Virus record (IMG/VR): IMGVR_UViG_3300047510_001118
Location: 1-64,000 of that record
DNA length: 64,000 nucleotides
Reading direction: 5' to 3' (one strand)
Source: a virus
Shown: positions 4,580 to 41,205 of the stretch, piece after piece
Layout of the letters: each line of letters opens with the position of its first letter
Numbering within the stretch: position 1 is the first letter of the stretch
Program-made: the position numbers and the translations under genes
The notes under the pieces: generated by a model
Databases searched by the model: none
The model's input: only the letters and a program-made list of their open reading frames with translations
What the model was told of the DNA's origin: nothing

Positions 4580-4585
4580 ATTGTT

Positions 4586-4659: not shown

Positions 4660-4665
4660 GTTGTT

Positions 4666-4905: not shown

Positions 4906-4927
4906 GACAATCTCCTTAAAGTTGTTT

Positions 4928-5002: not shown

Positions 5003-5010
5003 ATAATGTT

Positions 5011-5084
5011 TGGCACGGGTGCTAGGGCTCGAACCTAGAATAACAGAGTCAAAGTCTGTGGTGTTACCATTACACTACACCCGA
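5011..5084 (-). tRNA. tRNA-Gln(TTG)
   Basis: D stem GTGT/ACAC, anticodon stem ACAGA/TCTGT with loop CTTTGAC, T arm CTAGG-TTCGAGC-CCTAG, encoded CCA. The first acceptor pair is T-T. Confidence 0.9.
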
Positions 5085-5091
5085 TCAGAAC

Positions 5092-5166
5092 TGGTGGTAA
5101 TGGAAAGAGTCGAACTTTCACAGCGCACCGTATGAAGGTGTTGCACTACCATTATGCTACATTACC
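5092..5166 (-). tRNA. tRNA-Met(CAT), elongator-like
   Basis: Acceptor GGTAATG/CATTACC, anticodon stem ACACC/GGTGC with loop TTCATAC, encoded CCA. The fully paired first acceptor position and lack of GGG/CCC in the anticodon stem argue against an initiator. A lysidine-modified Ile tRNA cannot be excluded. Confidence 0.88.
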
Positions 5167-5318
5167 ATATAGAAACATACTAATGAACCAGCCTGACGCA
5201 GCCGTACGCTTGGCAGATCGTTTCCAATCTGTTTCTCGCTTTTCTCGGTACTCTGTATGTTCAGGATTCCGCAGTCCTCAATACAATCGCTTGTAAGGGC
5301 AACTAATATGTTTTTATA
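5167..5318 (-). other. Structured tRNA spacer, paralogous to 3693-3767
   Basis: On the minus strand the CCA of tRNA-Lys leads into CCATATA-A-AAACATA, which pairs with TATGTTT-C-TATATGG at the 5' end of tRNA-Met: 14 pairs and one A-C mismatch, as in the 3693-3767 spacer but with a different, still complementary inner half. Internal hairpins include CAGAT/ATCTG and AGGA/TCCT. No convincing reading frame. Confidence 0.7.
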
Positions 5319-5392
5319 TGGTAGGGGCACAGAGAATCGAACTCTGATTAATAGGTTAAAAGCCTACTACTTTGCCGTTAAGTTATACCCCC
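5319..5392 (-). tRNA. tRNA-Lys(TTT)
   Basis: Acceptor GGGGGTA/TGCCCCT, loop CTTTTAA giving TTT, T arm CAGAG-TTCGATT-CTCTG, encoded CCA. The 126-nt gap to its right holds only very short frames and a possible 12-codon ORF that ends in this tRNA. Confidence 0.92.
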
Positions 5393-5518
5393 ACGATCTT
5401 ACCACTCTTGTCACTTTCCATAACAGGATCTCCTATTTTAAATTTTTGTCGATAAAATATATCAATACTACAAGCATGAGTAAAACGGCCACCGCCCCAT
5501 TTTAGTTCCCCTTATAGT

Positions 5519-5593
5519 TGGTGCCTAATCTTGGGAACGATCCAAGGACCTATGCGTTATCAACACATTGCTCTACCACTGAGCTAATTAGGC
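5519..5593 (-). tRNA. tRNA-Ile(GAT)
   Basis: Acceptor GCCTAAT/ATTAGGC, anticodon stem ATGTG/CGCAT with loop TTGATAA, encoded CCA. The T loop reads ATCGTTC rather than the usual TTCGANT, which is odd for a functional tRNA. Confidence 0.88.
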
Positions 5594-5799
5594 AAAATGA
5601 ATTTGTAAGTAGTTGCCCCATCGTTATAGCAACCATTCACCCGTGTAATTAAGCCGGCCGGGACTCGGTACGTCACTTGGAATACTTAACCAACGTGTCT
5701 ATTTTTTGCTAGGGTTTTGCGCCCCCCGTTGCCTTACTATAGTCAGCTCTTCGAAGAAGCCTGCTATAGTGTCTTTCTCTTGCTGACACTTACAAAACT
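5594..5799 (-). other. Large structured tRNA spacer
   Basis: A 206-nt spacer closed by a perfect 9-bp helix: TTTGTAAGT and ACTTACAAA at 5602-5610 and 5788-5796. Internally there are GTGTC/GACAC, a CTATAG/CTATAG stem enclosing CTTC-TTCG-like pairing, and GTTGC/GCAAC. No reading frame. It joins the ends of tRNA-Cys and tRNA-Ile as the other spacers do. Confidence 0.6.
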
Positions 5800-5877
5800 T
5801 GGAGTGAGGAGTCGGATTTGAACCGACGGCTTTACAGTTTTGCAGACTGTTGCATTGGGCCTCTCTGCCATCCTCAC
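5800..5877 (-). tRNA. tRNA-Cys(GCA)
   Basis: Acceptor GTGAGGA/TCCTCAC, discriminator T (typical of Cys), anticodon stem ACAGT/ACTGT with loop CTGCAAA, encoded CCA. Confidence 0.93.
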
Positions 5878-5883
5878 ATTACT

Positions 5884-5960
5884 TGGCGACCCGGGAAGGA
5901 TTTGAACCTCCGACATTTGGTTTTGGAGACCAACGTTCTGCCAGACTGAACTACCGAGCC
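5884..5960 (-). tRNA. tRNA-Trp(CCA)
   Basis: Acceptor GGCTCGG/CCGGGTC with wobble pairs, anticodon stem TTGGT/ACCAA with loop CTCCAAA, discriminator G, encoded CCA. Confidence 0.93.
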
Positions 5961-17310: not shown

Positions 17311-17367
17311 AACTATGCATATTAACGCATTAGTAAACAAAACGTAAGTCTTTTTGGTGAAACTGAT

Positions 17368-17394
17368 AAAAGAAAAGGCTCCGAAGAGCCTTTT
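17368..17394 (-). terminator. Terminator of tmRNA coding piece
   Basis: On the minus strand AAAAGGCTC-TTCG-GAGCCTTTT with a UUCG-type loop is followed by CTTTT, directly after the tmRNA coding piece. Confidence 0.85.
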
Positions 17395-17396
17395 CA

Positions 17397-17599
17397 CTAT
17401 TTTGGGTTACAAGGTATAGTTACCCCGGAGCTGCAGTTTCTTAGGCTGCTAGTTCAAAACGCTTGCCTGTTACAGCGAAGTCAGTTTTGAAATACTCAAA
17501 TGTAGATGCGTTTGCATTTACTAGTTTTGCTTGATTAACGGTCATCGCCTACCGTGTTGCCTCTTTCGCTATCTCGCCATGTCGAAACCGGTCGGGCCC
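17397..17599 (-). ncRNA. ssrA: Two-piece tmRNA, coding piece (permuted ssrA)
   Basis: The 5' end GGGCCCGACCGGTTTCGAC carries the conserved tmRNA GGxUUCGAC motif. GGGCCCG pairs with CGGGTCC of the acceptor piece at 17689-17756 (7 pairs, one G-U). A tag frame runs 17515-17441: resume codon GCA, 24 sense codons, stop TAA. The peptide begins ANAST and ends FELAA; the Leu-Ala-Ala tail is the classic ClpXP degron. In normal ssrA the acceptor part lies at the 3' end; here it comes first, so the gene is circularly permuted as in some bacterial lineages. The exact 3' end is approximate; a terminator follows. Confidence 0.93.
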
Positions 17600-17600
17600 A

Positions 17601-17675
17601 TCATAAAAGGACTAGAGCAAATACTACGAGTACAACTACTACACCTATTCCTAGATGAGTTAGATCATCGTTCAT
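17601..17675 (-). CDS. 24-aa membrane peptide inside the tmRNA locus
   Basis: A 24-codon frame starting MNDDLTHLGIG and ending in an almost unbroken run of Val, Leu, Phe and Ala that would span a membrane. The ribosome site AAGGAGA lies 5 nt before the ATG. The frame occupies nearly all of the segment between the acceptor piece's CCA (17689) and the coding piece's 5' G (17599), ending 1 nt before that G. Translation would have to precede processing of the pre-tmRNA. Not recognised. It could be a small toxin-like or membrane-modulating peptide, or chance (less likely given the ribosome site and composition). Confidence 0.65.
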   Translation of the reverse strand: MNDDLTHLGIGVVVVLVVFALVLL

Positions 17676-17688
17676 ACTAATCTCCTTA

Positions 17689-17756
17689 TGGTGGACCCGG
17701 GGGGAATCGAACCCCCGTCCACAACGCCTTCACTACGAAGGAATTACAACAATACC
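17689..17756 (-). ncRNA. ssrA: Two-piece tmRNA, acceptor piece
   Basis: Contains a T arm (GGGGG-TTCGATT-CCCCC), the acceptor strand CGGGTCC, discriminator A and encoded CCA, plus a CCTTC/GAAGG hairpin near its start. A normal 5' half cannot precede it because the cold-shock gene's stop codon adjoins at 17757-17759. Its acceptor strand instead pairs with the coding piece 90 nt downstream. No promoter is seen between it and the cold-shock gene, so it is probably processed from the csp transcript (inference). Confidence 0.92.
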
Positions 17757-17960
17757 TTAGGCTGGCTGAATATTGCTAGCCTGTTGACCTTTCATGCCCA
17801 TAGTTACTTCAAACCTTACACTCTGTCCTTCTTGTAGGCTTTTGAAGCCACTTGACTGAATCTGTGAAAAGTGAGCAAATAAGTCTGCGCCACCATCGTC
17901 CGGTGTAATGAACCCAAAACCTTTGGCGTCGTTAAACCATTTTACTTTTCCTGTTACCAT
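17757..17960 (-). CDS. cspA: Cold-shock-domain RNA-binding protein
   Basis: 67 residues, the standard length of a single cold-shock domain. RNP1 is KGFGFI (about 13-18) and RNP2 LFAHF (about 27-31). The start follows AAGGAAAGAAAGTAAA. It binds single-stranded RNA or DNA, and in bacteria acts as an RNA chaperone or antiterminator. Its stop codon touches the tmRNA acceptor piece, so the two are probably one transcript. Confidence 0.95.
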
Positions 17961-25531: not shown

Positions 25532-25695
25532 TATCGACAAATGCTAAAACTTTTAACGCCGTTTAAACTAAACGTCTTTAGATAATTTTCCATGTCATCA
25601 TTATAGGCTATCATTTTGGCCGGTGTCATAAATTTGTATTGTAACATCAACCATACAGTGTAGTCAAGCCACCAATCTATAGGTGTGTATATCAT
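25531..25695 (-). CDS. 54-aa small protein
   Basis: Starts MIYTPIDWWLDYTVWLMLQY. ATGA overlap with the cyclase gene's stop and TAATG overlap with the following gene show coupling. Aromatic N-terminus, basic C-terminus; could associate with membranes. Not recognised. Confidence 0.65.
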   Translation of the reverse strand: MIYTPIDWWLDYTVWLMLQYKFMTPAKMIAYNDDMENYLKTFSLNGVKSFSICR

Positions 25696-27734
25696 TTTTC
25701 GTGTGCGATAAATTCGCCGTTCCAGTTGGCTCCTAAATCTTGTTGTTTCATAAACTCACAACGTTCAATCCAGATCTTATAATACTTGTCCATCTGTCCA
25801 CCAAATAGTCCTTTCATCTTAGCACACATGGCGGCTGCTTCGTCAAACTTTTTCTGTTTATACAAGGCATGCATTTTGTCATGTTGTTCCTTGTCTTTAC
25901 TATAATCTTCGCCACGTGTACGAATTACTGTGTAAATTAAATCTGCTACAGTTTTACCCTTAGGCTGTAAGTTGTCTAATAGCAAGTAGAAGAAGTCGTC
26001 TTTGGTTCTGTTGTATGTTTCAGCACCAATGATAGCCAACACTCCGTAGGCTTTACAACGAGCTTCTAATCGAGCCGCAGTACTAACCATGTCACCTAAG
26101 ATGTCGTAACTGTGTCTATCAGTTGATCCCATCTCGCCAATAAAGCCAATGCCTGTGTTACAACCCCAACCCATAGCCGCAGGCGGTAATCCTTGTGCTT
26201 CCATTTCTTTGGTATAAGCATCAACGGCATCCAACATCTCTAAACCAACTTTAACAATAGTGTGTGCGTGATTGGGATCATCAATCGGAGCACCATGTAT
26301 GTGCATACTCGCATCGCCTACATACTTAATAACCATACCTTTGTTATCCATAATAGGTTTACTGATGCTGTCCATGTAGCCGTTCATATATTTGCCAAGT
26401 CCAGCAACATCGTCTCCATAGTGTTCACCAATCGGTGTGAAGCCGCGCAAGTCACTAAACATAACTGATACGTCTTTGCGAACACCACGCTTGATTAAGT
26501 CTGGATCCTTTTGTAGCATCTCTACTACTTCTTTAGAGCAGTAGCCAGCAAACTGTTTCTTAATTGCCTGCTTCTGTAAGAATTCGCTTACAAACTTAAC
26601 GCCATAACAATGAAGAGCAACGATAATAAGCCCAAACGTGATTGCAGTCGCGTCCGCCAAGACGAGCCAATTATTGAAAGCGTAGATAGTACCAGGAACG
26701 ATGGCACCAATAGTAACCACAGTAGCACCAATGCCAACATAAGTCCACCTCGATAAGAAAATTAATAATATGCCAATTCCTAGTAATGCTAGAATTTCAA
26801 CACCGGCGGCATAGTCAGGTCGTTGAATTGTTACACCATTTATCATTGTGCCTAATACTGCGGCTTGTACATCCTGCGGCCATGTTCCTTGAACTGGTGT
26901 TGGCACAGGGTTACCTAAACCTGTAGCGGCAACACCTACAATAACTACAGCACCAGCAAAGTCTTTAGGAAGGTTAACTGCTGAAGCAGACTTTGAACGT
27001 TGACTCCAGTCAATCCATACACGACCTTTGTCGTCTGTGGCAATAGGACCAAACTTTGGTATGCGCATTTTTTCTACGCCGCCTTCGAACAACTTAATCT
27101 GTGTTGTTGAATCTCCTGCAGCCACACGTAATGCTTCCATAGCAATACTAGGATAGACTACACCGTCAACGGCAATTACCAAAGGCATTCGTCTTACTAC
27201 GTTGTCGTTTTCTTCTTCGGTGTGAATAGTTCCTGTGCCAACTGCACGACTTTCAAGCACAGGTACGTTGGCCATTATGCCAGCATACTGTGTTATTTGA
27301 TTAGCATACTCGTTTTTAATTACTGCTGTACTAGGTTGTCGAGGAGTATTCTTATTTTTATTTTCTGGAGTGTTTGGCAGTATTACAGGAAACTTGTTCA
27401 TAGTTTCTGCTAGGACACGATCCTTACCAAATCTATCTTCCTCTGACAGTAGTATATTAAACACAACCAGTCCTGCGTTACGTTTGTACAAGTCTTCAAT
27501 TATCTTAGCGTAAACATCTCTAGGGAAAGGATACTGCCCGTATTTGGCTATAGTATCTTCATCAATGTTTACTGTGTAAATGTTGTTTTCAGTAGGTGCT
27601 TTGGCCGTTATTAATTCGTCAAAGTATTTCAAACGAACATTCTCAACAAACGAAGGGTCTGCAATTCGTATGCCCACTACTAACGCTAGGGTTAGTAGGG
27701 CAGTCCAAGGGCTTAAAAGAAATTTTTTCATCAT
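25692..27734 (-). CDS. CHASE2-domain adenylate/guanylate cyclase
   Basis: 680 residues. One N-terminal membrane helix (about 9-26), a CHASE2 sensor domain (about 30-300), three membrane helices (about 310-385), then a class III cyclase domain (about 415-600). Metal-binding Asp residues lie in FSDLRGFTP and KYVGDASMHI. Lys of KYVGD and Asp of YDILGD fit ATP specificity. The usual transition-state Asn in G-x-x-V-N-x-A-A-R is replaced by Ser (VSTAARLE), while the Arg is kept, so activity may be reduced. The C-terminus (about 620-670) looks like a helical TPR-like tail. It would make cAMP at the host membrane (inference). Confidence 0.92.
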   Translation of the reverse strand: MMKKFLLSPWTALLTLALVVGIRIADPSFVENVRLKYFDELITAKAPTENNIYTVNIDEDTIAKYGQYPFPRDVYAKIIEDLYKRNAGLVVFNILLSEEDRFGKDRVLAETMNKFPVILPNTPENKNKNTPRQPSTAVIKNEYANQITQYAGIMANVPVLESRAVGTGTIHTEEENDNVVRRMPLVIAVDGVVYPSIAMEALRVAAGDSTTQIKLFEGGVEKMRIPKFGPIATDDKGRVWIDWSQRSKSASAVNLPKDFAGAVVIVGVAATGLGNPVPTPVQGTWPQDVQAAVLGTMINGVTIQRPDYAAGVEILALLGIGILLIFLSRWTYVGIGATVVTIGAIVPGTIYAFNNWLVLADATAITFGLIIVALHCYGVKFVSEFLQKQAIKKQFAGYCSKEVVEMLQKDPDLIKRGVRKDVSVMFSDLRGFTPIGEHYGDDVAGLGKYMNGYMDSISKPIMDNKGMVIKYVGDASMHIHGAPIDDPNHAHTIVKVGLEMLDAVDAYTKEMEAQGLPPAAMGWGCNTGIGFIGEMGSTDRHSYDILGDMVSTAARLEARCKAYGVLAIIGAETYNRTKDDFFYLLLDNLQPKGKTVADLIYTVIRTRGEDYSKDKEQHDKMHALYKQKKFDEAAAMCAKMKGLFGGQMDKYYKIWIERCEFMKQQDLGANWNGEFIAHEK

Positions 27735-27778: not shown

Positions 27779-28141
27779 GTGAGTACATATTGGGGTTATC
27801 ATTTAATGTTAGACTGTAGCGGCTGCGATATTGAAGCAGTTTCCAGTCGAGAAAACATTTATAAATTTATTAAAGATTTAGTACAACGTATTGATATGGT
27901 AGCACACGGAGAACCAGTAATTGAGCATTTATTGCCCGGCGACCCAAAACAAGGATATAGTTTAATGCAGTTAATTACTACCAGTAACATTTGCGGTCAT
28001 TTTATGGAACTAGATGGAACAGCATATTTTGATGTGTTTAGTTGTAAACCATTTGATCTTGAAATTGCTAAAATGGTAGTTAATGAATATTTTCATCCTA
28101 AGAAAATGCGTGTAAATTTTCTAACACGACATGCTGATTGA
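27779..28141 (+). CDS. speD: S-adenosylmethionine decarboxylase proenzyme (SpeD-like)
   Basis: 120 residues, matching class 1B SpeD. HLMLDCSGCD is the typical N-terminus. The self-cleavage Ser is in TTSNICGH, with His 5 residues and Cys 20 residues after the Ser, the spacing of Ser63, His68 and Cys83. The residue before the Ser is Thr instead of Glu and the next is Asn instead of His. It supplies decarboxylated SAM for spermidine synthesis. GTG start after GGAGAGTTAA. Known from other aquatic phages. Confidence 0.88.
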   Translation: MSTYWGYHLMLDCSGCDIEAVSSRENIYKFIKDLVQRIDMVAHGEPVIEHLLPGDPKQGYSLMQLITTSNICGHFMELDGTAYFDVFSCKPFDLEIAKMVVNEYFHPKKMRVNFLTRHAD

Positions 28142-28847
28142 TTTTGTAAAAACTCCTTATACCACAGGTCCTAACATGGTTCGCAACACAGGACCTGTTT
28201 TTATATCTCACCCCAATCAAGAAATAATACAACAGAAAAAAATTGAATTAGAAAGACACGGTGCTGACCTTTGGGCACAAGAACCCCGAGTAGATCAGAT
28301 TGTAAAAAAAGCCGCAGAACAGTGTAATGTCTATACAGACGATATTATAGATCTTGCTTTGATGTTAGAAGAAGATGTTGCTGTTATGCACAAAGGACGA
28401 CTAGCGGCAATTTGTTTTTGTTTTCCTAGTGGATTTATTCCCAGCGAACGTATAGGTATGCTGTTAGGTGATATACACAGACCTGTAGGCGACGGTGAGC
28501 AGTTAGTTAAAGCCAGTCCCGGTATTGCTCGTGTTATGACCGAACAACCAAGTTTTCGCAGATATGTTTGGACGGTAACTAATAATCCAAATCTCAGTAA
28601 TCATCCCAGTACAAGAATAGATACGATTCCACAATCAATGGACGATCTTTACTTCCGTTGGGAAACGCAGACCACTGCTAGAGTCGATAATGATACTAGT
28701 TTATTTTTTGTAAAGATGGATGTGGTGCCATTGAGAACAGTTTGGAATAGTAAAATATTAGACAGCATTAATTCTATGACCGATACTGTTTTAACTTATA
28801 AAAATTTACATCACATTAAACAATTACTAAACAGTCGGGAAAAGTAA
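28131..28847 (+). CDS. DUF3445 / heme-dependent oxidative N-demethylase-like
   Basis: 238 residues. The block ALMLEEDVAVMHKGRLAAIC, then FPSGFIPSERIGMLLGDIHR and later WETQTTAR and MDVVPLRT, follow the DUF3445 (HODM alpha-like) pattern: an early EED, F-P-S-x-(W/F), I-H-x-P-V and R-x-E-(R/T)-Q. Known members bind heme and an Fe-S cluster and demethylate secondary amines. It overlaps speD by 11 nt, linking it to amine or polyamine metabolism (inference). Confidence 0.8.
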   Translation: MLIDFVKTPYTTGPNMVRNTGPVFISHPNQEIIQQKKIELERHGADLWAQEPRVDQIVKKAAEQCNVYTDDIIDLALMLEEDVAVMHKGRLAAICFCFPSGFIPSERIGMLLGDIHRPVGDGEQLVKASPGIARVMTEQPSFRRYVWTVTNNPNLSNHPSTRIDTIPQSMDDLYFRWETQTTARVDNDTSLFFVKMDVVPLRTVWNSKILDSINSMTDTVLTYKNLHHIKQLLNSREK

Positions 28848-28916: not shown

Positions 28917-31043
28917 TTAGAATAACCACTTAATAGTTGCCTGTACAATATTATTGACTACTCCGCCTTGACGTTGTTGTACAACATTGACTCCACCTAG
29001 CACATTCTTATCAGGAGTAAAACTTGCGCCTGCTTTGACTGTGGTAATGTTATTGGAAGTCTGTCCTACCTCTGCTGTCAAGTTAACAGCATCAGTAACT
29101 TTGGCATCATAACGAACACCTGCTTCGCCTATGGTCTTAGTTTGATTTTGTCCGGCATAAGTCATTGCTGTCAAAGGAGTACCAGACTCTGTTAATCCTC
29201 CAACTGTACTGTTCTGTACTCTAACTCCAGCATATGGTCGGAAGCCTTCCATGTTGGGTGCGTAAAGTCTGTTGGCTAGCCAAACATCTGTACCATTGGT
29301 TTTGCCTGTGTTGCTCATACCTAGTTCGTCGATGTTGTGATAGTTAGAATAATTGTTGCGAGCAACTCCTAAATCACTCTTCAATAACCAACCTTCGTGA
29401 TTGTATAGACTGTATACACCAACGTGATTCTTTTCTAAACGGCCACCACTTTGATCGCCTGCTAGATTAGCAATAACATTGTTATACTGAGCACCTACAA
29501 TCCAATTACTTTCAATTTTCTTTTCGTGTCCAACACCAAAACGTGTAGTGTTCATACGATAAGTGTCTGAAGCATTACTACGCTGACCCTCAGCAATAAT
29601 ATAAGTCCAACCTTTTTCTTCAGTACCTGCTAGACCAGTTCTTGTAGACAACACTGAATCTTTGCCGTCATGACGATCCAACACATTGCTGTCTAAAGTC
29701 ATATTGATTCTAGTGTTGGCCTTAGACATATAATCATACTGATCAATGCGTGTTGAATATGCTTGATCTTGACTGGCAGTTTGTACATCATCTACTGTGT
29801 TAGTTGCCACTGCGACTTGATTAGCAGTGGTTACAGTAGTAGTTGGTGTACCGTTCACAGTCTGTGTGGTATTGTCACTGTAGGTGTTAACTGTAGTAGG
29901 TGTTGTAGTTGTGGTAGTAGTTACAGGAGTTGTACTTGTAACAGTCGTTGTCACTGGTGTTGTAGAAACATTGGTAGTATTTCTATTAATACTTAAAACT
30001 TTACTTTCACCTGTTCGTGTATCTGTAATAGTAGTTACGAGAACAGTAACGCCTGTGGCAATGACTACATCAGTAGTTGTCGGACCACTTACTGAATTCG
30101 ATGTAACGATTGGTGTACCTGGGGCACTGCTTACTATTGTTGGTGATGATGTAGTACTTCCTGGACTGCTAGGAGCACTGGTCCCTGGGTTTGGAGCAAC
30201 AGCACCAAACGTTGTACCGTTTTGTAAAGTTGTTCCTTGTTGCTCGTCAACTAGTAGTACAGGACTGAGAGCAGTGTCATCTAAGTTAAACACAGCAAAC
30301 CCCAACTGATATGTACCAGTAGTGTCTACACTGTATGTGGAAACCTGCCAGCCTGTTGATCCAAATGTACCAGCACTGTAGTCACCTGTGCCTGGATTAG
30401 TAAATCCTAACAAGGCATAATTTTGTGCGTAGTTGTTAACTGTGGTATTTCCTGTTGTTCCAGACATTGGAGTTAATGTTGTAATAGAACCATCGTTAAA
30501 AGGCACATAGTCTGTGCCAATGTAGTTCCAAGACATATTATATGTTGTTCCAGCAGTCAGTGTAACTGTTCTATAAGTATAGGCCAAGTTAGTGATTGAA
30601 CCCGATCCGAAACCACTGGCCTGTGCCTGTGTCTGTAACAAAGAACTTAGACTGGAAATCTGTGTAGATGTTAAACCTAGCTCTGTTCCTACTGTTGACC
30701 AATTAGTTTGCGCATTAGGTTGTAGTGCCAACATATTATTACCATAGGCACTGAATGTCCATGTAGCAGGACTAACTGGAGGTTGATAATAAGCACTGCC
30801 TGCGGTGCCTGCTCCTGGATGACTACCGGCACTAAAAGTCACAGTTCCTGGCGTACCTGTAATAAGACTTACACCTGTGCCGCTGCCAGTGATTGTTGTT
30901 GTCATTGTGCCGGTATTGTCGGCACCAATGGTCCAACCTGAAGTGTTTCCACTTTCAAAGCCCATATTTGAATCTGTCCATTGTGCCAAGGCACTGGTAG
31001 ACATTAGAGCCGCAACTGTGGCGGCAATTATAGTTTTTTTCAT
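28917..31043 (-). CDS. Autotransporter-like outer-membrane adhesin
   Basis: 708 residues. Signal peptide MKKTIIAATVAALMSTSALA. The passenger (about 25-310) is Gly/Ser/Thr-rich and beta-like, followed by a Thr-rich low-complexity linker (about 345-420), then a C-terminal beta-barrel (about 450-708) ending in Phe (TIKWLF), as autotransporter barrels do. AGGAGCGAAAC precedes the ATG. It is the last gene of the curli-region operon and would be exposed on the host surface. Receptor masking or adhesion are possibilities. Confidence 0.82.
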   Translation of the reverse strand: MKKTIIAATVAALMSTSALAQWTDSNMGFESGNTSGWTIGADNTGTMTTTITGSGTGVSLITGTPGTVTFSAGSHPGAGTAGSAYYQPPVSPATWTFSAYGNNMLALQPNAQTNWSTVGTELGLTSTQISSLSSLLQTQAQASGFGSGSITNLAYTYRTVTLTAGTTYNMSWNYIGTDYVPFNDGSITTLTPMSGTTGNTTVNNYAQNYALLGFTNPGTGDYSAGTFGSTGWQVSTYSVDTTGTYQLGFAVFNLDDTALSPVLLVDEQQGTTLQNGTTFGAVAPNPGTSAPSSPGSTTSSPTIVSSAPGTPIVTSNSVSGPTTTDVVIATGVTVLVTTITDTRTGESKVLSINRNTTNVSTTPVTTTVTSTTPVTTTTTTTPTTVNTYSDNTTQTVNGTPTTTVTTANQVAVATNTVDDVQTASQDQAYSTRIDQYDYMSKANTRINMTLDSNVLDRHDGKDSVLSTRTGLAGTEEKGWTYIIAEGQRSNASDTYRMNTTRFGVGHEKKIESNWIVGAQYNNVIANLAGDQSGGRLEKNHVGVYSLYNHEGWLLKSDLGVARNNYSNYHNIDELGMSNTGKTNGTDVWLANRLYAPNMEGFRPYAGVRVQNSTVGGLTESGTPLTAMTYAGQNQTKTIGEAGVRYDAKVTDAVNLTAEVGQTSNNITTVKAGASFTPDKNVLGGVNVVQQRQGGVVNNIVQATIKWLF

Positions 31044-31118
31044 GTTTCGCTCCTGCCCATCGTTTCGCTCCCGGGCTACGTATATTTAAAACTTATTGGA
31101 GAATGATTATGCTATCAG

Positions 31119-32222
31119 TTAATTCTGTGTGATAGTTACAGTGCTAGTGGCGCCCTTATTAACGTTCTGTATAATAGTTTGGCCGCTTTGAATTAATGTA
31201 TATGTTACGCTTTTAGTTGTGTCAAATGTAGCAGTAGCATTATGTGTGCCCGCTTTATATAAGGTAACTTTAGTCTGGTCGTCATTAAAATAATATAAAA
31301 GTCCTAACGACTTATTAGCGTTATATCCAGGCAATATAGGATTATCTAATTCGTCTCCTAATAGTGAAGCATTTTGTCTATCCAATTCATTCAATTCATT
31401 GAATGCTAAGAGATCCGAGTCTAAGTCATTTCTGTCTAATGCTTTGTTGTCATCTAATTTATTAGTTTCTAATGCTGTGTATTTTAATAAGTCAACATCT
31501 AACTCATTAAAGTCTAATATACTTTTTTCTTTCTTTGTTACGCCGGCACGGGTGTCATCTTGAACTTCAGGAGGTTTACTAATAATTAACATATTGTTAA
31601 TGTTGGCTTGATCAATTTTAATCACAGTCGGAGTGCTTGGCGGAGAATTTTGAGAGTTTACCAGTGTGGCTTGATAAGGAATATCTAATAGCACTACACC
31701 TGCTAGGTTGCTAACTTCAATTGCTCCAGTTACACAGCCACCGTTTGGAGCACAACTAGGAAGAAGCATGATTAAACTACGGCCTAATTCGTCCACAGTC
31801 ATTGAAAAATCTGTGCCACGGACAGCAATACTAGCGGTGGGTGTTTTTATTGCCACCTGTTGTGGATTGTTTTTAGCAATCTGTCCACTGGCATATCGTG
31901 CTGTGCCTAAGGCCATGTTTATGGCCAGTTTTCCTGAACCTTTCTTTGAATCATAGACAAAATCATCTATGATCATTTTGCTATGCTCTGTAAGTTTGAC
32001 TGTGGTCTTATCTTCAAAAGTCAGCTCAGCCTTTGCCTTGGCCGTACTCACTGTATCATTCATTTGTACAGCCGTATTTAAACTAGACGAGATGGATTTT
32101 TTATCTCGTATAATTTCTGTAGGACCAGTCTGCTCAGTAACCTTGCCTATAGCGGCATGGCTATTAATCGGACTGAGTAACAACAACGTTGTTATTAGAA
32201 CCGTTGCTAGTGATAACTGCAT
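31119..32222 (-). CDS. FecR-domain secreted protein
   Basis: 367 residues. Signal peptide (ends INSHAA). A FecR domain (about 30-150) with GTARYASGQIAKN and TPTASIAVRGTDF, the family's hallmark. Then a charged Asn/Asp/Leu-rich stretch with short repeats (NELD, ALDRNDLDSD, about 225-300) and a C-terminal beta segment. FecR domains occur in periplasmic sensors and in surface-assembly loci. The start lies 59 nt inside the curlin gene, suggesting coupled translation. Confidence 0.82.
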   Translation of the reverse strand: MQLSLATVLITTLLLLSPINSHAAIGKVTEQTGPTEIIRDKKSISSSLNTAVQMNDTVSTAKAKAELTFEDKTTVKLTEHSKMIIDDFVYDSKKGSGKLAINMALGTARYASGQIAKNNPQQVAIKTPTASIAVRGTDFSMTVDELGRSLIMLLPSCAPNGGCVTGAIEVSNLAGVVLLDIPYQATLVNSQNSPPSTPTVIKIDQANINNMLIISKPPEVQDDTRAGVTKKEKSILDFNELDVDLLKYTALETNKLDDNKALDRNDLDSDLLAFNELNELDRQNASLLGDELDNPILPGYNANKSLGLLYYFNDDQTKVTLYKAGTHNATATFDTTKSVTYTLIQSGQTIIQNVNKGATSTVTITQN

Positions 32223-32835
32223 TTTTGGCTGTTGCTCCGCTTTGTGTTAGTGTTACTGCGTTAGCAACACTGCTTGTTCCGCTGCCTGATACAGTGATTT
32301 CTCCTGAATGTTGTCCTACACCAGATGCTGTGTGCGTTACATTGTTATAGTTTCCATTAACTGCAATTTTACTCTGTAATACACCGCCACTTAGCGTCTG
32401 TACGGTATTATTGTTATTACCCGTAATTTCAGATCTAATAATACTAGCATTACATGTTGAACTTAGAGCAGTGCCGCAACCAATAGTTTGAGTATTGTTG
32501 CTACCGTCTGCTGAAACTACAACAGTAGATCCGGTTCCATTAGTTTCGTTGTTGATAATAATACTCGCAATGTTGCCAGCACCGATCTGACTGATAGTTA
32601 CATCATTAAGATCACCACGAATTATCGCGGCATCATCAGCGTTGCCAGTACCTCCCACGTTACCATTGACCATGTTGCCTGCGCCAGTTTGTGTAATCGA
32701 AACCGACGAGTTATCGCCAATCTGTTCTACGTACACGTCGTTGGCCCACGCTCCCGTTGACATCATTCCAGATGTCACTAGAATTGCGAGTAATTTTCTC
32801 GACAACTCGCTACCGCCTGTCATTCTTTTCTTCAT
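32164..32835 (-). CDS. Curlin-like amyloid subunit (CsgA/CsgB type)
   Basis: 223 residues. Signal peptide ending TGAWA. Repeats of the curlin type S/T-I-x-Q-x-G-x-x-N follow, for example VYVEQIGDNSSVSITQTGAGN and VTISQIGAGN; later copies are looser (NNTVQTLSGG, NYNNVTHTASG, NNVVVTQSD). Such repeats form the amyloid beta-solenoid of curli fibres. Ser/Asn/Gln/Gly-rich as expected. Two cysteines in the middle are unusual for curlins. TGGAGCGAATAAA precedes the ATG. CsgG and CsgF genes are adjacent upstream. Confidence 0.85.
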   Translation of the reverse strand: MKKRMTGGSELSRKLLAILVTSGMMSTGAWANDVYVEQIGDNSSVSITQTGAGNMVNGNVGGTGNADDAAIIRGDLNDVTISQIGAGNIASIIINNETNGTGSTVVVSADGSNNTQTIGCGTALSSTCNASIIRSEITGNNNNTVQTLSGGVLQSKIAVNGNYNNVTHTASGVGQHSGEITVSGSGTSSVANAVTLTQSGATAKNAVITSNGSNNNVVVTQSD

Positions 32836-32922
32836 TTTATTCGCTCCAGATGCAAGTTAAAGTTTATTAATGCATCTAATATTAAAGTTTTTTGTTTGTC
32901 CTTTCTCATGCTTACTCTGCTC

Positions 32923-34047
32923 CTAAGGTTTGTCCGTTGTAAGCATGTCATTTCTTACGAACCCACCCCTTCCGTTTTTACTCTTAACGGTACTCCATTC
33001 CTGATTATGAACTGTGACTGTGACTTCTGTGCCTTTTTCAAAAAACCAAACTCTTGTACTGTTATCATCATCTGTTCTTCTTACATAATAATGATTGTTA
33101 AAATACATAGTTGAACCATTTATAATTTCTTTTTTAGGTCTTGGTCCAATTTCCGTTCCGTAGTCCCCGGCCTTGCTTTCTGTCTTAGTTTCTGCTCCTG
33201 TTGTTGCAGGCGGCGCATCTGTTGTAACAGGCTTGACATCATCTTTCTTCTCCTCTATAACAGCAGGTTTAGAAACCTTGTATCTCCATAAACCCTTTTT
33301 CTGACCTTCAACAATCATATCATGTACTGCTTGCTCGATAGCCACACGCACAGCATAGGTAGTTGGTTCGTTTAATGCCATACCATTTTCTAATTCAAGT
33401 GCTTTAGTTCCTGCGTCTACAAATCTTAGAACACCTACGTTGTGTTGTGTGCTATAGATAGTCTTACTAACAGCATTGGTGATTAACACTTCTCCGCTGT
33501 TTACGCTGACTAATCTTAGGCTAATAACAATCTCATCTACACGATATTGTTGGCTTCCGCCAATGCCTAAAAATCTAGCACCGTTTCCGCCGCTTCTTAT
33601 ATTGGTGTCGTAACCGATGATACCACCCTCAATCATTACGCCAGCCACTGTCATTGGTTTAAGGGGCTTGGCATCTTTGCCCTCATAAACTTCCCGTTGG
33701 TTGCGAATCAATTGTCTTTCTTTTATGAGATTATCTAACCCGACACGTTCGACCACCTTAAACCAACCCTTTGCGTCCTGTAGTGCTTTAATTAAAAACA
33801 CTTCAGAACCCTGTGTCACAGCCTTGCTGAACACTGCTAATCTATCATTGGGCTTCATTTGCCCAGTTTTATCTAAAAATCCATAAACAGCAATGGTAAT
33901 CGGTGGACCATCCAATTCTGGCAATTTATTAATTAGATTTTCTCTTGGCTGAAGAGCTATTGGCTCTTCTTTAGATGCTTCCATCTGTATATGGGCGCAT
34001 CCTGACAGCGCAGTGGCTACTAATAATGTTAATAGTAATCGTTTCAT
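32923..34047 (-). CDS. csgG: CsgG curli secretion channel with C-terminal SH3-like extension
   Basis: 374 residues. Lipobox LSGC gives Cys16 as the lipidated residue. The core (about 45-270) follows CsgG: TIAVYGFLDKTGQ, FLIKALQDAKGWFKVVERVG, GGIIGYDTNIRSGGNGAR and VGVLRFVDAGTK. It forms the nonameric outer-membrane channel for curlin. After residue about 280 comes a Thr/Glu-rich linker and an SH3-like tail (VRRTDDDNSTRVWFFEKGTE, then VTVHNQEWSTVK), not present in E. coli CsgG (277 aa). Coupled to csgF by a TAATG overlap. Confidence 0.93.
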   Translation of the reverse strand: MKRLLLTLLVATALSGCAHIQMEASKEEPIALQPRENLINKLPELDGPPITIAVYGFLDKTGQMKPNDRLAVFSKAVTQGSEVFLIKALQDAKGWFKVVERVGLDNLIKERQLIRNQREVYEGKDAKPLKPMTVAGVMIEGGIIGYDTNIRSGGNGARFLGIGGSQQYRVDEIVISLRLVSVNSGEVLITNAVSKTIYSTQHNVGVLRFVDAGTKALELENGMALNEPTTYAVRVAIEQAVHDMIVEGQKKGLWRYKVSKPAVIEEKKDDVKPVTTDAPPATTGAETKTESKAGDYGTEIGPRPKKEIINGSTMYFNNHYYVRRTDDDNSTRVWFFEKGTEVTVTVHNQEWSTVKSKNGRGGFVRNDMLTTDKP

Positions 34048-34490
34048 TAGAACGCAAAGCTCGCTATCGGTACAACGATTTCAGTTCTACTACCGTTCGC
34101 TTCGATAATAGTTAAGGTAACATCTGTACCTGATTTTACCCAACTTATGCTAGTTCCTTGGAAGTTCATACTTCCGCTGTTACCACCGCCTTCAGCAAAC
34201 ATTTGATCTGCTAGTTGTTTAGATAACTGCGCATATATACGTGCTTCTACGTTGACTAGGAACTTGCTTAAATTTGTGCTTTTTGCGGCTGCTTCTGCTT
34301 TAGATATTGCAGCAAGCTCTTCTGATCGAATTTCTTTTTTCTTGTTCTCTTCCATTTGATGGATAGTAAGAACGTGTTGACTATACCCATTGCCTGGAAT
34401 AAAGGCTGGGCTTTGAAATTGATGAACTAGCTCTGCTTGAGCTGTACTAGCAGAGACTAGTGACAATAATACTAGTGCTCTTTTTAACAT
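34047..34490 (-). CDS. csgF: CsgF-like curli assembly factor
   Basis: 147 residues. Signal peptide ending STAQA. The mature N-terminus (ELVHQFQSPAFIPGNGYSQ) matches CsgF, whose N-terminal segment plugs into the CsgG channel and nucleates curlin outside the cell. C-terminal beta strands end in PIASFAF. GGGAGCGAATC precedes the start. It is the first gene of the csgF-csgG-curlin-FecR-adhesin operon. No csgE was found. Confidence 0.9.
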   Translation of the reverse strand: MLKRALVLLSLVSASTAQAELVHQFQSPAFIPGNGYSQHVLTIHQMEENKKKEIRSEELAAISKAEAAAKSTNLSKFLVNVEARIYAQLSKQLADQMFAEGGGNSGSMNFQGTSISWVKSGTDVTLTIIEANGSRTEIVVPIASFAF

Positions 34491-34553
34491 GATTCGCTCC
34501 CGATAATCGGTATTATTATTTAAAGCAGAGCGAATTAGAATTAAACTATAAGT

Positions 34554-36117: not shown

Positions 36118-36798
36118 TTATCGTATTTCTGGGAACAGGCATTCTTGGATAAAAATGGCAACATCTTCTTCTGAAAGCCCTAAACTAACCATTACACGCG
36201 GTGTATGCGGGTTTTGTTTTTGATTTTGGGCATAGAAATTCTGTTCGTGTGTACAATCTGCTATAGTGTTATTCGTTTCGTCTACAGTATCTAAGTAGTG
36301 TACGATAGTGTCTTTTGCTAGATTTGTTATTTGTTCTAGTTCTGTTTCATCTTGAACATTTCCAGCCGCTACCATGTGTTTACTAAAAATTCGTTGTGCC
36401 CATTCGGGAAGTTCACGTGGTTTACGCCATTCAAGTTTATTAACTTCGTCAGCAAACCATTGGCACATAGGATGTCCACTGTTTACTGTAGGACTATAAT
36501 CATGAAAACAACCTGTGATTTTATTTTTACCTGCGATAACATCAAACCCGTATATGGGAGCAGGATTATGTATATGTGGGAAAACGCAACAGTGCATCAT
36601 CCAGAGACCCTTTGTGGATCGGGCATCGACTACATCAATATGGGCACGTCGGTATTTGAAACTAGTCCATACTCGATTAACCCAGCCTGGCTGGTTAAAC
36701 CGTTCCATGCCCGGTTCATAAACCTCAATACCTGTGCGATTAAAATTTTCTTCTAGTAACTGCTGGATATTGATTAATGTGTCCCAAACTTGACTCAC
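36118..36798 (-). CDS. Ferredoxin-dependent bilin reductase (PcyX/PebS/PcyA family)
   Basis: 226 residues, normal for the family. GIEVYEPGMERF, WTSFKYRRAHIDVVDARS and CVFPHIHNPAPIYGFDVIAG followed by DYSPT are the bilin-reductase core; His of FPHIH and Asp of HDYSP match catalytic positions of PcyA. It reduces biliverdin to a phycobilin with electrons from ferredoxin. GTG start overlaps the heme oxygenase stop (GTGA), so heme to biliverdin to bilin is encoded as one unit. Such cassettes are known from cyanophages (PebS) and marine viral metagenomes (PcyX). The exact product cannot be told from sequence. Confidence 0.9.
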   Translation of the reverse strand: MSQVWDTLINIQQLLEENFNRTGIEVYEPGMERFNQPGWVNRVWTSFKYRRAHIDVVDARSTKGLWMMHCCVFPHIHNPAPIYGFDVIAGKNKITGCFHDYSPTVNSGHPMCQWFADEVNKLEWRKPRELPEWAQRIFSKHMVAAGNVQDETELEQITNLAKDTIVHYLDTVDETNNTIADCTHEQNFYAQNQKQNPHTPRVMVSLGLSEEDVAIFIQECLFPEIR

Positions 36799-37334
36799 TT
36801 AATTAAATCCATCATTTCTTTAAAGAACTCAGTAGCGAATTCAAAACAAACTTTGGCTTCATCTGCCATATCGTCACCGATTTGTTCTCTAATGGCTACT
36901 TTTAATGTTTCAGGGTCACTGAACTGATAATATTTGCCTTGACCTGGGACTCGCTTTGCGATCATTTGCCCACCAGCAAGATCTCCCATGTGGCGAACGT
37001 AAATGTGTGCCATTAGTTTTTTTGGATCATCTTTAATACTCAACACATACTTAATATACCTATCAACTACTGGACACATTGGTGGTGTTGTTCTATCGTC
37101 CCCCCATAGTTCCATAAAGTCATCTAGTATGGCAGGGGCTCTACGTATATCTGGTAACCCGTGTAAGATACCATGAGGCATAGCACAGACCTCTAGTATT
37201 TCGTACATTGGATGTTGATTTTTTAAATAGATAGCATAAAGTTTTGGATCAATACTACCCGAAAATAAAACTTTTACAAACTCTTGTCTTTCTGCGTTTG
37301 TGTGTGCTTCTTTAGTTAATTCTTTTAAACTCAT
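36795..37334 (-). CDS. hemO: Heme oxygenase
   Basis: 179 residues, on the short side. The proximal heme His is in KEAHTNAE (about 8-15) and the distal helix signature is GDLAGGQMI (about 117-125). It opens heme to biliverdin, releasing iron and CO. Overlaps ClpS upstream (ATGA) and the bilin reductase downstream, so all three are coupled. Confidence 0.95.
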   Translation of the reverse strand: MSLKELTKEAHTNAERQEFVKVLFSGSIDPKLYAIYLKNQHPMYEILEVCAMPHGILHGLPDIRRAPAILDDFMELWGDDRTTPPMCPVVDRYIKYVLSIKDDPKKLMAHIYVRHMGDLAGGQMIAKRVPGQGKYYQFSDPETLKVAIREQIGDDMADEAKVCFEFATEFFKEMMDLIK

Positions 37335-37645
37335 TCTGCGTCCACTTTAATTTGTAAAGGAAATCCTGCTTGGCGAGACAAATGTGTTGCTTCAACACCT
37401 TTTTGTTCAGCAATTTCATATGTATATACACCAACAACTGCCGAGCCTTCATTGTGAATGGTTAAAGTAATTTGTTCCGCAGTTTCTTGGCTGTGTTTGA
37501 AAACAGTTATTAAAAGCTCAATAACGAACTCCATTGGAGTTTTATCGTCGTTTAAGAAAAGAACCTTGTATCGTTTAGGTTCTGAAATCTCAATTTTGAT
37601 CTTTTCATCGATCATCACATTTTCTTGTGTATCAATCGCCGCCAT
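37331..37645 (-). CDS. clpS: ClpS adaptor
   Basis: 104 residues. YKVLFLNDDKTPMEFVIELL (about 26-45) and the downstream IHNEGSAVVGVYTYEIAEQK match ClpS nearly throughout, including the NDD-x-TPM segment that binds N-degrons. ClpS delivers N-end-rule substrates to ClpAP. Phage ClpP is at 21183-21746; no ClpA or ClpX was found here, so host ATPases would be used. Confidence 0.95.
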   Translation of the reverse strand: MAAIDTQENVMIDEKIKIEISEPKRYKVLFLNDDKTPMEFVIELLITVFKHSQETAEQITLTIHNEGSAVVGVYTYEIAEQKGVEATHLSRQAGFPLQIKVDAE

Positions 37646-37704
37646 GATAAATCTCCACTTTCTAATATTTAGTGGGGGATAAATTTATCCCCCGTGTTTT
37701 AGGT

Positions 37705-38136
37705 TTAGCCTTTAATTTCAATAGTTCTAGGTTTCATTGCCTCGGGGATTATACGCTCGATCTGAATTCTAAGCATACCATCTTTAACTTCGGCACCACG
37801 AACTTCCATATACTCTGCTAGAGTAAATGCCTGCTCAAAATCTCGAGCAGCCAAACCTCTATGTAAATACTCTTTGGTTTCATCTATATCAATGGATTTG
37901 TTTCCAGAAATTTTTAATTGATCCCCTTCAACTTCAACATTGATTTCATCTTTATTGAATCCCGCAACTGCTACTTCAATGCCGTAACTATTCTCTTCAT
38001 ATTTTACAATATTGTATGGAGGATAGTTAGTTGTGCGTGTTTCAAAAGTTCGATCGTTAAAAATACGATCAAATCCAACAAGTGCTCTATTTAGATGTGC
38101 TAGAGCGGTAGTGTCAATAGTTCTTAATTGTGTCAT
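37705..38136 (-). CDS. hsp20: Small heat-shock protein (Hsp20/IbpA type)
   Basis: 143 residues. The alpha-crystallin domain spans about 38-130 (YNIVKYEENSYGIEVAVAGF to the GMLRIQIER strand), with an I-x-I-like tail (RTIEIKG). It holds unfolded proteins. A leader hairpin at 38167-38193 followed by CTTGCTTAATTAAGGAG closely resembles the leader of dnaK. T4-like phages carry Hsp20 relatives. Confidence 0.93.
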   Translation of the reverse strand: MTQLRTIDTTALAHLNRALVGFDRIFNDRTFETRTTNYPPYNIVKYEENSYGIEVAVAGFNKDEINVEVEGDQLKISGNKSIDIDETKEYLHRGLAARDFEQAFTLAEYMEVRGAEVKDGMLRIQIERIIPEAMKPRTIEIKG

Positions 38137-38200
38137 TTATATTTCTCCTTAATTAAGCAAGAATTATATGCGGCCTCACCCAAGCACCGCATAATTTTAT
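38137..38200 (-). promoter_or_regulatory. hsp20 leader hairpin, shared with dnaK
   Basis: On the minus strand TATGCGG/CCGCATA encloses TGCTTGGG, then CTTGCTTAATTAAGGAG leads to the start codon. The dnaK leader (40105-40185) has the same order: hairpin with TGCTTCGGG loop, then CTTGCTTAATTAAAGGAG. A common control element is likely. Confidence 0.65.
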
Positions 38201-38223
38201 TTTACTATTTTTCTGTGTCTGTG

Positions 38224-40104
38224 TCAATTCTTTTTGGCTTCAGTAAACTCAGCATCAACAACATCGTTATCAGAGGACGATGTTGTAGCCTCAGCAGTTT
38301 TTGCGGCTAAAATTGGTTGTATAGCCACTGCTAGGTCGCTGGTCTTTTGAACGATGATATCTTTGTCGTCACCCTTGACTGCTTCTAAAACAGCATCACA
38401 GGCTTCTTCAATTTTACCTTTTTGTTCTTCAGTAAGTTTATCTTTTACTTCATCCAAATCTTTTTTAACTGTATGTACCTGTGCTTCAGCAGAATTTCTA
38501 GCGTCAATCAACTCTCGTTGTTTACGATCACTTTCAGCATTGGCTTCTGCTTCTTGAACCATGCGTTCAATTTCTTCCTTACTTAGGCCGCTGTCGCTCT
38601 TGATAGTGATTTGATTTTCTTTGCCGGTGTTTTTATCTTTAGCACTGATTTTCATAATGCCGTTGGCATCAATATCAAATGTAACTTCAATCTGTGGCTG
38701 ACCACGACGTGCTGGAGCAATGCCATCTAACTTAAACTCGCCGAGTAGTTTATTGTATTGGAACAGTTCTCGTTCACCTTGACCAACTTTAATATCCACT
38801 GCTGGCTGATTATCTTCTGCTGTACTAAACACTTGACTAGCCTTGGTAGGGATAGTTGTATTCTTTTGTACAAGTTTAGTAAACACACCGCCCATAGTTT
38901 CAATGCCTAGACTCAATGGTGTTACGTCTAACAATAAAACGTCTGTGCGATCGCCTGCTAGTACACTACCTTGAATAGCCGCACCAACTGCTACTGCTTC
39001 GTCTGGATTAACATCACGACGTGGAGCCTTGCCAAACAGACGTTCAACTTCTTCTTGTACCTTAGGCATACGTGTCTGACCACCGACTAAGATAACTTCG
39101 TCGATGTCAGCGGCTGTTACACCCGCATCTTTCATAGCAATGCGGCAAGGCGCCAATGAACGGTTAATCAAATCTTCAACTAGTGCTTCTAGTTTACTTC
39201 TTGTAATTTTAACAATAAGGTGTTTTGGACCACTGGCATCTGCTGTAATGTATGGTAGGTTGACCTCAGTCTGTGAACTATTTGAAAGTTCAATCTTGGC
39301 TTTTTCTGCGGCATCTTTTAATCTTTGTAGAGCCAGTGTATCAGATTTTAAATCTATACCTTGTTCTTTCTTAAACTCATCAACTAAGAAATCCATGATG
39401 CGTTGATCAAAGTCTTCACCACCTAGGAATGTATCGCCGTTTGTTGACAATACTTCAATTTGTTTATCGCCGTCGACATCAGCAATCTCGATAATAGATA
39501 CGTCAAACGTACCACCACCTAAATCGTATACAGCAATCTTTCGATCCTTTTTATCAGTTTTATCAACACCGTAGGCTAGTGCGGCTGCTGTTGGTTCGTT
39601 GATAATACGCAAGACTTCTAAGCCAGCAATCTGTCCAGCATCTTTGGTAGCCTGGCGTTGTGCGTCATTAAAATATGCTGGTACTGTGATAACTGCTTGA
39701 GTTACTTCGTGACCTAAATAGTCTTCAGCAGTCTTTTTCATCTTGCGAAGAACTTCTGCTGAAATCTGTGGAGGTGCTAGTTCTTTGTCTTGAGCCTTAA
39801 CCCAAGCATCACCGTTTTTTGCTTCGATGATACTGTAAGGTATAAGATCAATTTCTTTTTGTACAGCCTGCTCTTTAAATTTACGACCAATTAGTCGTTT
39901 AGACGCATAGATTGTATTTTTTGGGTTTGTAACCGCTTGACGCTTTGCTGATGCGCCAACTAGAATTTCATCTGAAGTATAGGCGACGATACTGGGTGTA
40001 GTACGGGCACCTTCAGAGTTTTCAATTACTTTGGAATTTCCTGCCTCGATGATAGCCACGCATGAGTTGGTGGTTCCGAGGTCAATACCGATGACTTTGC
40101 TCAT
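38224..40104 (-). CDS. dnaK: DnaK (Hsp70) chaperone, full length
   Basis: 626 residues. [15 protein letters not shown] is the canonical start, with the phosphate loop [15 protein letters not shown] (about 190-204) and the linker [14 protein letters not shown] (about 386-399), plus a complete substrate-binding domain and an acidic tail. Start chosen by AAAGGAGATAACAAT. It folds proteins with ATP, using host DnaJ and GrpE since none are seen here. A complete phage DnaK is uncommon. Confidence 0.97.
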
Positions 40105-40185
40105 ATTGTTATCTCCTTTAATTAAGCAAGATTTAAGTTTGGGCAACTGCCCGTTTATAGGACCCGAAGCATCCTACAATTTTAT
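40105..40185 (-). promoter_or_regulatory. dnaK leader hairpin, shared with hsp20
   Basis: On the minus strand TAGGA/TCCTA (40158-40176) encloses TGCTTCGGG, followed by a GGGCA/TGCCC hairpin and CTTGCTTAATTAAAGGAG. A GATAAATAAAATTG motif lies upstream; hsp20 has the similar AAAATAAAATTATG. Confidence 0.65.
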
Positions 40186-41205
40186 TTATCTCAGAAATAC
40201 GTCATTTACTTGTCTATTGACACGAATAAATGTTGTACACTTTGATAACTGTTTTAAACTAGGCGCACCCACGTATGTACAGGCACTACGTAAACCGCCC
40301 AATAAATCTAACACTGTGTTTTGTACAGAACCTTTATAGGGTATTTCTACTGTACGTCCTTCACTGCTACGATAATTTGCTACACCACCACTATGTTTAT
40401 TCATAGCAGTATCTGAGCTCATACCGTAGAATATAACTTTTCCGTTTTCTACGGTTCCGCCACCTTGGTCGTGCCCTGCCAACATTCCGCCAAGCATGAC
40501 GAAGTCTGCGCCTGCTCCAAATGCCTTAGCCACATCGCCTGGGCAAGTACAACCACCATCAGCAATAATATGGGCGCCGAGACCGTGCGCCGCATCAGCG
40601 CATTCAATGATCGCAGAAAGTTGCGGGTAGCCAACCCCAGTTTGTATCCTAGTCGTACATACCGATCCCGGTCCAATTCCAACTTTGACAATGTCTGCTC
40701 CTCTTAAAATTAATTCTTGTGTCATGTCAGCAGTGACAACGTTACCAGCAATAATAGTTGCGTGTGGATATGTTGATCTAACTTTACTAACGAAGTCTCC
40801 AAAATGTTCACTGTATCCGTTGGCCACATCAATACAGATAAACCGTATTTCGGGATAAGAATTAACTATTTGTCGTAATTTTAGGAAATCCTTATCGCCG
40901 GTACCTGTACTGACAGCAAAATGATCGCCGCCAAAATGTCCTACGAAATTGAACAGATCTTCCTCGTCATAGTTTTTAACAAGGCAAGTAAACATCTGAT
41001 GCTCATACAGAGCCTTGGCCATTCCTATAGTTCCGACGCCATCCATGTTGGCGGCCATTATAGGAACTCCAGTCCATTCTGCTTTGCTGTGTTTAAATTT
41101 GTAAGTGCGAGTTAAGTTTACTTCTTTGCGACTTGAAAGTGTACTACGTTTTGGTCGAATTAATACATCCTTGAAGTCTAGTTTGACTTCGTCTTCGATA
41201 CGCAT
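40186..41205 (-). CDS. guaC: GMP reductase (IMPDH/GMPR family)
   Basis: 339 residues. The catalytic Cys loop is [20 protein letters not shown] (about 177-196), and the GMPR-type flap [20 protein letters not shown] and EIPYKG follow. It lacks the CBS domains of IMPDH and fits GuaC, which converts GMP to IMP with NADPH. It could rebalance purines for phage DNA synthesis. Located between dnaK and bS21. Confidence 0.9.

Follow-up and report, generated by a model that had tools for sequence, protein, structure and literature searches.

What are the genes of a curli-type secretion system (type VIII secretion system, T8SS) doing in the genome of a phage? The question is raised by a locus in the first 64,000 nucleotides (nt) of the IMG/VR virus record IMGVR_UViG_3300047510_001118, a stretch that we refer to as the window. 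The initial annotation, made from the sequence alone, had read the minus-strand genes at positions 28917-34490 as a curli-type cassette. These five genes are indeed present at those positions, well above what chance would give, and csgF, csgG, the curlin-repeat gene and fecR exceed curated Pfam cut-offs. A sixth gene at 25692-27734, encoding a cyclase, had been missed, and the module consists of the following genes, all with residue counts in amino acids (aa):

34047..34490, minus strand: csgF, 147 aa, with a signal peptide assigned by eye (Pfam CsgF, E 3e-16; phrog_35372, E 3e-43)
32923..34047, minus strand: csgG, predicted outer-membrane lipoprotein pore, 374 aa, with an SH3-like C-terminal tail at about residues 322-366 (Pfam CsgG, E 2.4e-53)
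32164..32835, minus strand: curlin-repeat gene, predicted fibre subunit, 223 aa (Pfam Curlin_rpt, E 1e-4)
31119..32222, minus strand: fecR, predicted exported FecR-domain protein with a curlin-like C-terminal tail, 367 aa (Pfam FecR, E 2.6e-11)
28917..31043, minus strand: predicted type Va autotransporter, 708 aa (from AlphaFold2 and Foldseek; homologues match Pfam Autotransporter)
25692..27734, minus strand: CHASE2-class III nucleotidyl cyclase, last gene of the module, 680 aa (Pfam CHASE2, E 1e-37; Guanylate_cyc, E 6e-15)

The frames of csgF and csgG overlap by 1 nt and those of the curlin gene and fecR by 59 nt, in line with the overlaps that had been noted, and two plus-strand genes (27779-28847) separate the autotransporter and cyclase genes. 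Each product had also been credited with a signal peptide or lipobox: the lipobox of CsgG (LSGC) is plain, whereas the signal peptides of the others were assigned by eye from the sequence and are putative. Hidden Markov model searches with the CsgG, CsgF and curlin families matched all three window proteins above the curated cut-offs. CsgG has E. coli CsgG as its best PDB match (E 7e-48), CsgF gave no PDB match by sequence, and both proteins match PHROG families that have no assigned function. Judging from sequences and structural models, the module is very probably a mobile curli-type surface-display set carried as phage cargo. As to its use, we propose, at a probability of roughly 0.5, that infected cells would display curli together with an adhesin, with the FecR protein and the cyclase acting as a sensor, for aggregation or superinfection control.

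The initial annotation had itself raised the alternative that the region is a chimeric assembly of phage and bacterial DNA. The complete record (278,126 bases) encodes a T4-type capsid protein and a terminase, whose nearest counterparts in phage records place it with the PA5oct/Rak2-like jumbo myoviruses: the capsid protein (gp23) is 71% identical to that of Sinorhizobium phage Phosso, 69% to that of Vibrio phage 2.275.O and about 66% to those of the GAP32/CBB group, and the terminase (TerL) is 55.6% identical to that of PA5oct. The capsids of three other large module-bearing records are 78-86% identical, and those of the marine phages HTVC008M and Melnitz, discussed below, 37-38%. Close relatives of CsgG are encoded on 37 further viral contigs; of these relatives, all 34 with sequence beyond csgG have the curlin gene after it, and all 33 with sequence beyond the curlin gene then have fecR; the cyclase gene is usually the last of the module, and one contig (L003) matches the window in every gene from hsp70 through the cyclase. 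The module has the same GC content as the window, and its CsgG falls within a viral clade. Because the same gene order and junctions, on both flanks, recur on more than 20 independent viral contigs from many metagenomes, a chimera is excluded for practical purposes, and the genome is a genuine phage genome.

The basic finding is already published, as curli modules with FecR and a cyclase are known from pelagiphages and from the methylophage Melnitz. Phage curli genes were reported in 2020 (PMC7029224; PMC7198788); in 2022, podoviruses and myoviruses among the pelagiphages were shown to carry the order csgF-csgG-csgA/B-fecR-(csgA/B)-cyclase (PMC9599517), and Melnitz to carry a curli operon, for which a pinholin role was proposed (PMC9004378). 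Sibling capture, defence against superinfection, uptake and lysis timing are the ideas put forward in those papers. The pelagiphage modules (HTVC008M, uncultivated pelagimyophages and podophages; PMC7029224, PMC9599517) share with ours the order csgF-csgG-curlin-fecR-(slot)-cyclase, the lack of csgE and one CsgG clade, but they carry a second curlin gene in the slot (frequently, not universally; PMC9599517), lack the SH3 tail of CsgG (HTVC008M) and belong to marine Kyanoviridae and podophages rather than to PA5oct/Rak2-like jumbo phages. Melnitz, a phage of Methylophilales with a 141-kb genome and the marine host OM43 (PMC9004378), has the same gene order, a cyclase with the same unusual HSYD...VST motif and also a transfer-messenger RNA (tmRNA) gene, but its slot holds a second curlin gene and no autotransporter gene, and its CsgG is shorter. 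With bacterial curli operons (E. coli csgBAC-csgDEFG and alphaproteobacterial csg), the phage module has CsgG, CsgF and curlin homologues in common; by contrast, no csgE, csgC or csgD was seen in it, and FecR, the cyclase and the autotransporter are additions.

What is new is, first, a third lineage with the module, that of freshwater jumbo phages, whose CsgG is placed by phylogeny in one origin with that of the pelagiphages. In a maximum-likelihood tree, the viral CsgGs form one clade (support 96/81), which holds both the window CsgG and pelagiphage CsgG as well as sequences from phage-like contigs binned into bacterial metagenome-assembled genomes (MAGs), and within which the freshwater group is monophyletic (100/99). 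The sister of the viral clade is Hyphomonas TMED17 (97/94), although the long branches of Hyphomonas and of some phages make this sister position less certain than the clade itself. The contigs binned into Rhodobacteraceae, Flavobacteriaceae, Pirellulales and Pelagibacter MAGs (L044-L049, L051) carry a viral-type module and look, from their sequences, like phage contamination; one of them (L049) has an open reading frame resembling a T4-type late sigma factor by eye.

The Hyphomonas MAG also bears on how the module was assembled. Its csgF-csgG-curlin-fecR-CHASE2 cyclase genes, partly overlapping, lie on a 705-kb contig among ordinary bacterial genes, and among 80 genome hits this locus (L081) is the only one on clearly bacterial DNA in which a curli operon contains fecR and a cyclase gene. 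Since this operon already holds both, fecR and the cyclase gene probably joined the module before it entered phages. FecR and the cyclase have been described as lying outside bacterial T8SS operons (PMC9599517); in contrast, the Hyphomonas locus indicates that they can belong to a bacterial curli operon.

The second novelty is that a type Va autotransporter occupies the slot of the second curlin, with heads and barrels recombined between genomes. The initial annotation had correctly seen an autotransporter-like adhesin in this gene, which is of type V, and had overlooked that it replaces the second curlin gene of the pelagiphages; the slot holds no second curlin gene, and the whole record contains a single curlin match. 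The protein comprises a putative signal peptide, a 'GFExGNxxGW' head domain, a Thr/Ser-rich linker, a helix (residues 435-449) and a barrel (479-707). In the AlphaFold2 model, the barrel has 12 strands, follows the helix and ends with a C-terminal Phe, as expected of type Va autotransporters; the confidence (pLDDT) of this block is mostly 75-92, and that of the head is below 50, hence no head model is given. The 708-aa protein itself has no Pfam match. Foldseek retrieved NalP (E 1e-13, target TM-score 0.75) along with the translocators of EstA, BrkA, Hbp and EspP, and homologues in the same slot match Pfam Autotransporter (E 1e-20 to 1e-11). Signal peptide, linker helix and 12-strand C-terminal barrel are thus shared with NalP, EstA, EspP and AIDA-I, from which the window protein differs in being phage-encoded, in having a head without a Pfam family and in the recombination of head and barrel among phages. 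The barrel is also 30% identical (residues 488-648) to an 'autotransporter' of Synechococcus phage DSL-LC03, whose gene has no curli genes next to it.

In the freshwater jumbo phages, the fecR-cyclase slot usually encodes an exported barrel protein of 664-1445 aa, several with a Pfam Autotransporter match; in some relatives it is empty or holds other genes, and in L037 it holds a curlin-like PA14 protein, with PA14 in this second curlin, plus an autotransporter. Heads include F5/8C domains, which are often carbohydrate-binding, and others. Heads of three types are combined with barrels of three types in various ways: the protein of L003 shares its head with that of L002 (70-73% identity) and its barrel with that of the window (64%). 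Such mixing is expected of variable adhesins, and the recombination fits proteins of this kind. In other members of the same head family, a membrane anchor takes the place of the barrel (L167, L168, L170, L171, L180-L182, L191, L217-L220, L224, L230), LPXTG-like in L180 (E 0.006), giving one displayed head with two ways of anchoring.

The third novelty concerns the FecR protein, which by its predicted architecture lacks both a transmembrane and a cytoplasmic anti-sigma part and whose last ~45 residues resemble the C terminus of curlin. In a 24-row alignment, a signal peptide directly precedes the FecR domain and no convincing transmembrane segment follows; the usual arrangement, with a cytoplasmic anti-sigma domain and a transmembrane helix before the FecR domain, is not seen in the window protein, which is therefore unlikely to be an anti-sigma factor spanning the inner membrane. 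Foldseek matched the FecR domain to the periplasmic domain of PupR/BDI_1681, the fold of PupR cell-surface signalling. This match agrees with the suggestion (PMC9599517) that FecR and the cyclase regulate the module in response to iron or nutrients, but we judge this very unlikely, given the architecture described above and the pairing of FecR with CHASE2, which points to the cyclase instead. The C-terminal residues align end to end with the C terminus of curlin (hhalign E 4e-4, compared with 0.22-0.93 for eight column permutations and 0.3-0.98 for other slices). A weak Foldseek match of the FecR model to a 'cell surface anchoring domain' (5ix9, target TM-score 0.73, E 0.035) was also recorded.

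The cyclase gene occupies the same place in pelagiphages and other relatives, and the adjacency of FecR and CHASE2 genes in bacteria, far above chance in the genomes searched, is a further new observation, as is the Hyphomonas operon described above. Across 142 genomes that belong to the same class as the Hyphomonas TMED17 MAG, a FecR domain lies within 5 kb of 37 of the 150 listed CHASE2 loci, in 27 genomes and also outside curli operons, against about 1 expected; these figures are approximate, as 150 entries of each list were used. In Sinorhizobium meliloti, the gene for SMc02177, a non-cytoplasmic protein with a FecR domain, lies close to that for the CHASE2 cyclase CyaD1 and, ex planta, requires the CyaD1D2K/Clr cyclic AMP cascade for its expression (PMC5498481). 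From this adjacency beyond chance and the S. meliloti case, we infer that CHASE2 has FecR as its partner in the periplasm. Compared with class III adenylate cyclases, the window cyclase keeps the metal-binding Asp residues, the Lys and the Arg, and has Ser in place of the adenine-binding Asp and of the transition-state Asn. Both substitutions are also present in Melnitz; other phage copies and that of Hyphomonas are canonical, so that two classes of phage CHASE2 cyclase can be told apart, canonical (L016, L026, L028-L035, L039) and HSYD...VST (the window and Melnitz).

The fourth novelty is an SH3 tail, apparently gained by most CsgGs of the freshwater group, in which a variable linker and an SH3-like domain follow the pore. 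The initial annotation had noticed this tail; in the window it stays below the Pfam cut-off (SH3_4, E 0.0017), and relatives lie well above it (SH3_3, E 3e-10). It is absent from the CsgGs of HTVC008M and Melnitz and from all ten bacterial CsgGs examined, long ones included, and bacterial inheritance of the tail was rejected on the latter count. The absence of csgE also held up: a family search of the 278-kb record that detected the E. coli control found no CsgE, a protein that is not essential for curli in E. coli (PMC7029224). We conjecture that the SH3 tail is a periplasmic tether or a gate replacing CsgE. The missing gate, and the pinholin idea put forward for Melnitz (PMC9004378), might alternatively suggest that only the CsgG-CsgF pore matters, for lysis timing or solute uptake, and that the other genes are passengers. 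We find this quite unlikely, since curlin and FecR are retained in every relative that extends far enough, so that the substrate is always kept with the pore; in addition, CsgF, FecR and the autotransporter would be unnecessary for a mere pore, and an endolysin is already encoded in the window (61692-63227).

How, then, might the parts work together? In the display reading that we prefer, CsgG-CsgF would export the curlin subunit to the surface during infection as a curli-like fibre, and the autotransporter would insert its barrel and show a probably glycan-binding head beside the fibre. FecR, either free in the periplasm or borne on the fibre, would contact curlin through the C-terminal motif that they share, as well as the CHASE2 sensor on the periplasmic side, and the cyclase would report the state of secretion or of the surface to the host cytoplasm. 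The infected cell would turn adhesive; most likely this would keep it close to cells or particles where new phages meet hosts, and it might also shield the cell from other phages. Aggregation as the outcome has, in our estimation from the sequences, slightly less than an even chance.

The principal competitor is that the fibre and the autotransporter mask or occupy receptors, excluding superinfecting phages, with adhesion as a side effect. All products are predicted at the surface, head swapping between related phages fits competition between phages, and this role has been proposed for pelagiphages (PMC9599517). Against it, the exported proteins match no known anti-phage families and show no known receptor overlap, and the present results do not separate it from the adhesion reading; we regard it as unlikely. 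In the search for defence functions, the cyclase matched Pycsar PycC models, a result that might come from nothing more than a common cyclase fold.

Several observations weigh against the display reading. The Curlin_rpt match is just over the curated cut-off and regular repeats are few, so that amyloid formation is not assured, although the Q-x-G-x-x-N motifs are conserved in the alignment. The FecR-curlin similarity is short and of low complexity, the FecR protein of S. meliloti is dispensable for sensing the one plant signal tested (PMC5498481), and the Ser residues at two usual Asp/Asn positions make the activity and product of the cyclase uncertain. No clumping was seen in Melnitz cultures (PMC9004378), whose slot lacks the autotransporter. 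Finally, 72 of the 79 loci of the autotransporter family lie outside curli modules, on viral contigs; the autotransporter is hence not specific to curli modules, and the two may act independently.

Expression signals were also considered. The initial annotation had described shared ribosome sites, which exist as the motif GGAGCGAA before three of its five genes and are used elsewhere in the phage as well:

34493..34500, minus strand: GGAGCGAA ribosome-site motif of csgF
32840..32847, minus strand: GGAGCGAA ribosome-site motif of the curlin gene
31046..31071, minus strand: two GGAGCGAA motifs (31046-31053 and 31064-31071) upstream of the autotransporter gene

In relatives, about three-quarters of the GGAGCGAA occurrences close to the module precede module starts. 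A signal exclusive to the cassette was rejected, as the motif also serves a small-gene cluster at 105-115 kb of the same genome (L234, record positions 102500-117500); since the module shares the motif with other phage genes, its sequence suggests adaptation to the phage's own expression. The T4-type late promoter TATAAATA is rarer than by chance and absent at the module, and scans for sigma-70 promoters and terminators gave no informative signal relative to shuffled sequences.

Upstream, genes for heme oxygenase, ClpS, Hsp20 and Hsp70 (36795..40146, minus strand), which we do not claim as part of the module, stand in a row with an IMP dehydrogenase-like gene (36795-41205, minus strand). HSP70 and Heme_oxygenase are Pfam matches, and ClpS and Hsp20 were named from sequence only. 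The first four are syntenic in relatives: hsp20-clpS precedes the module in many that are long enough, and hsp70 and heme oxygenase do so in most of these. DnaK of E. coli supports the production of curli and maintains CsgA and CsgB in a state fit for export (PMC6123696), and by analogy the linkage of Hsp70, Hsp20 and ClpS to the module may be functional. Elsewhere in the window are 27 tRNA genes, which together serve almost every amino acid (960-5960, minus strand), and a permuted, two-piece tmRNA gene (17350-17792, minus strand), which matches the Rfam permuted and betaproteobacterial tmRNA models, recalls that of Melnitz and hints at a betaproteobacterial host.

In its fullest form, our proposal is a self-monitoring surface programme, in which T8SS curli and a head-swapping type V autotransporter would be joined by fibre-linked FecR signalling through the CHASE2 cyclase, with a possibly altered product, to the host cytoplasm, the whole being taken from a bacterial FecR-CHASE2 curli operon. 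We offer this version tentatively, as on balance rather unlikely in all its parts; if true, the phage would own an adhesion organ that carries its own feedback. Among phages, the curli module is not confined to those of marine SAR11 and OM43: with FecR and the cyclase it has moved into unrelated freshwater jumbo phages, where an autotransporter adhesin was gained. The FecR tail, the FecR-CHASE2 pair and head swapping provide testable parts for the question of why phages keep curli genes.

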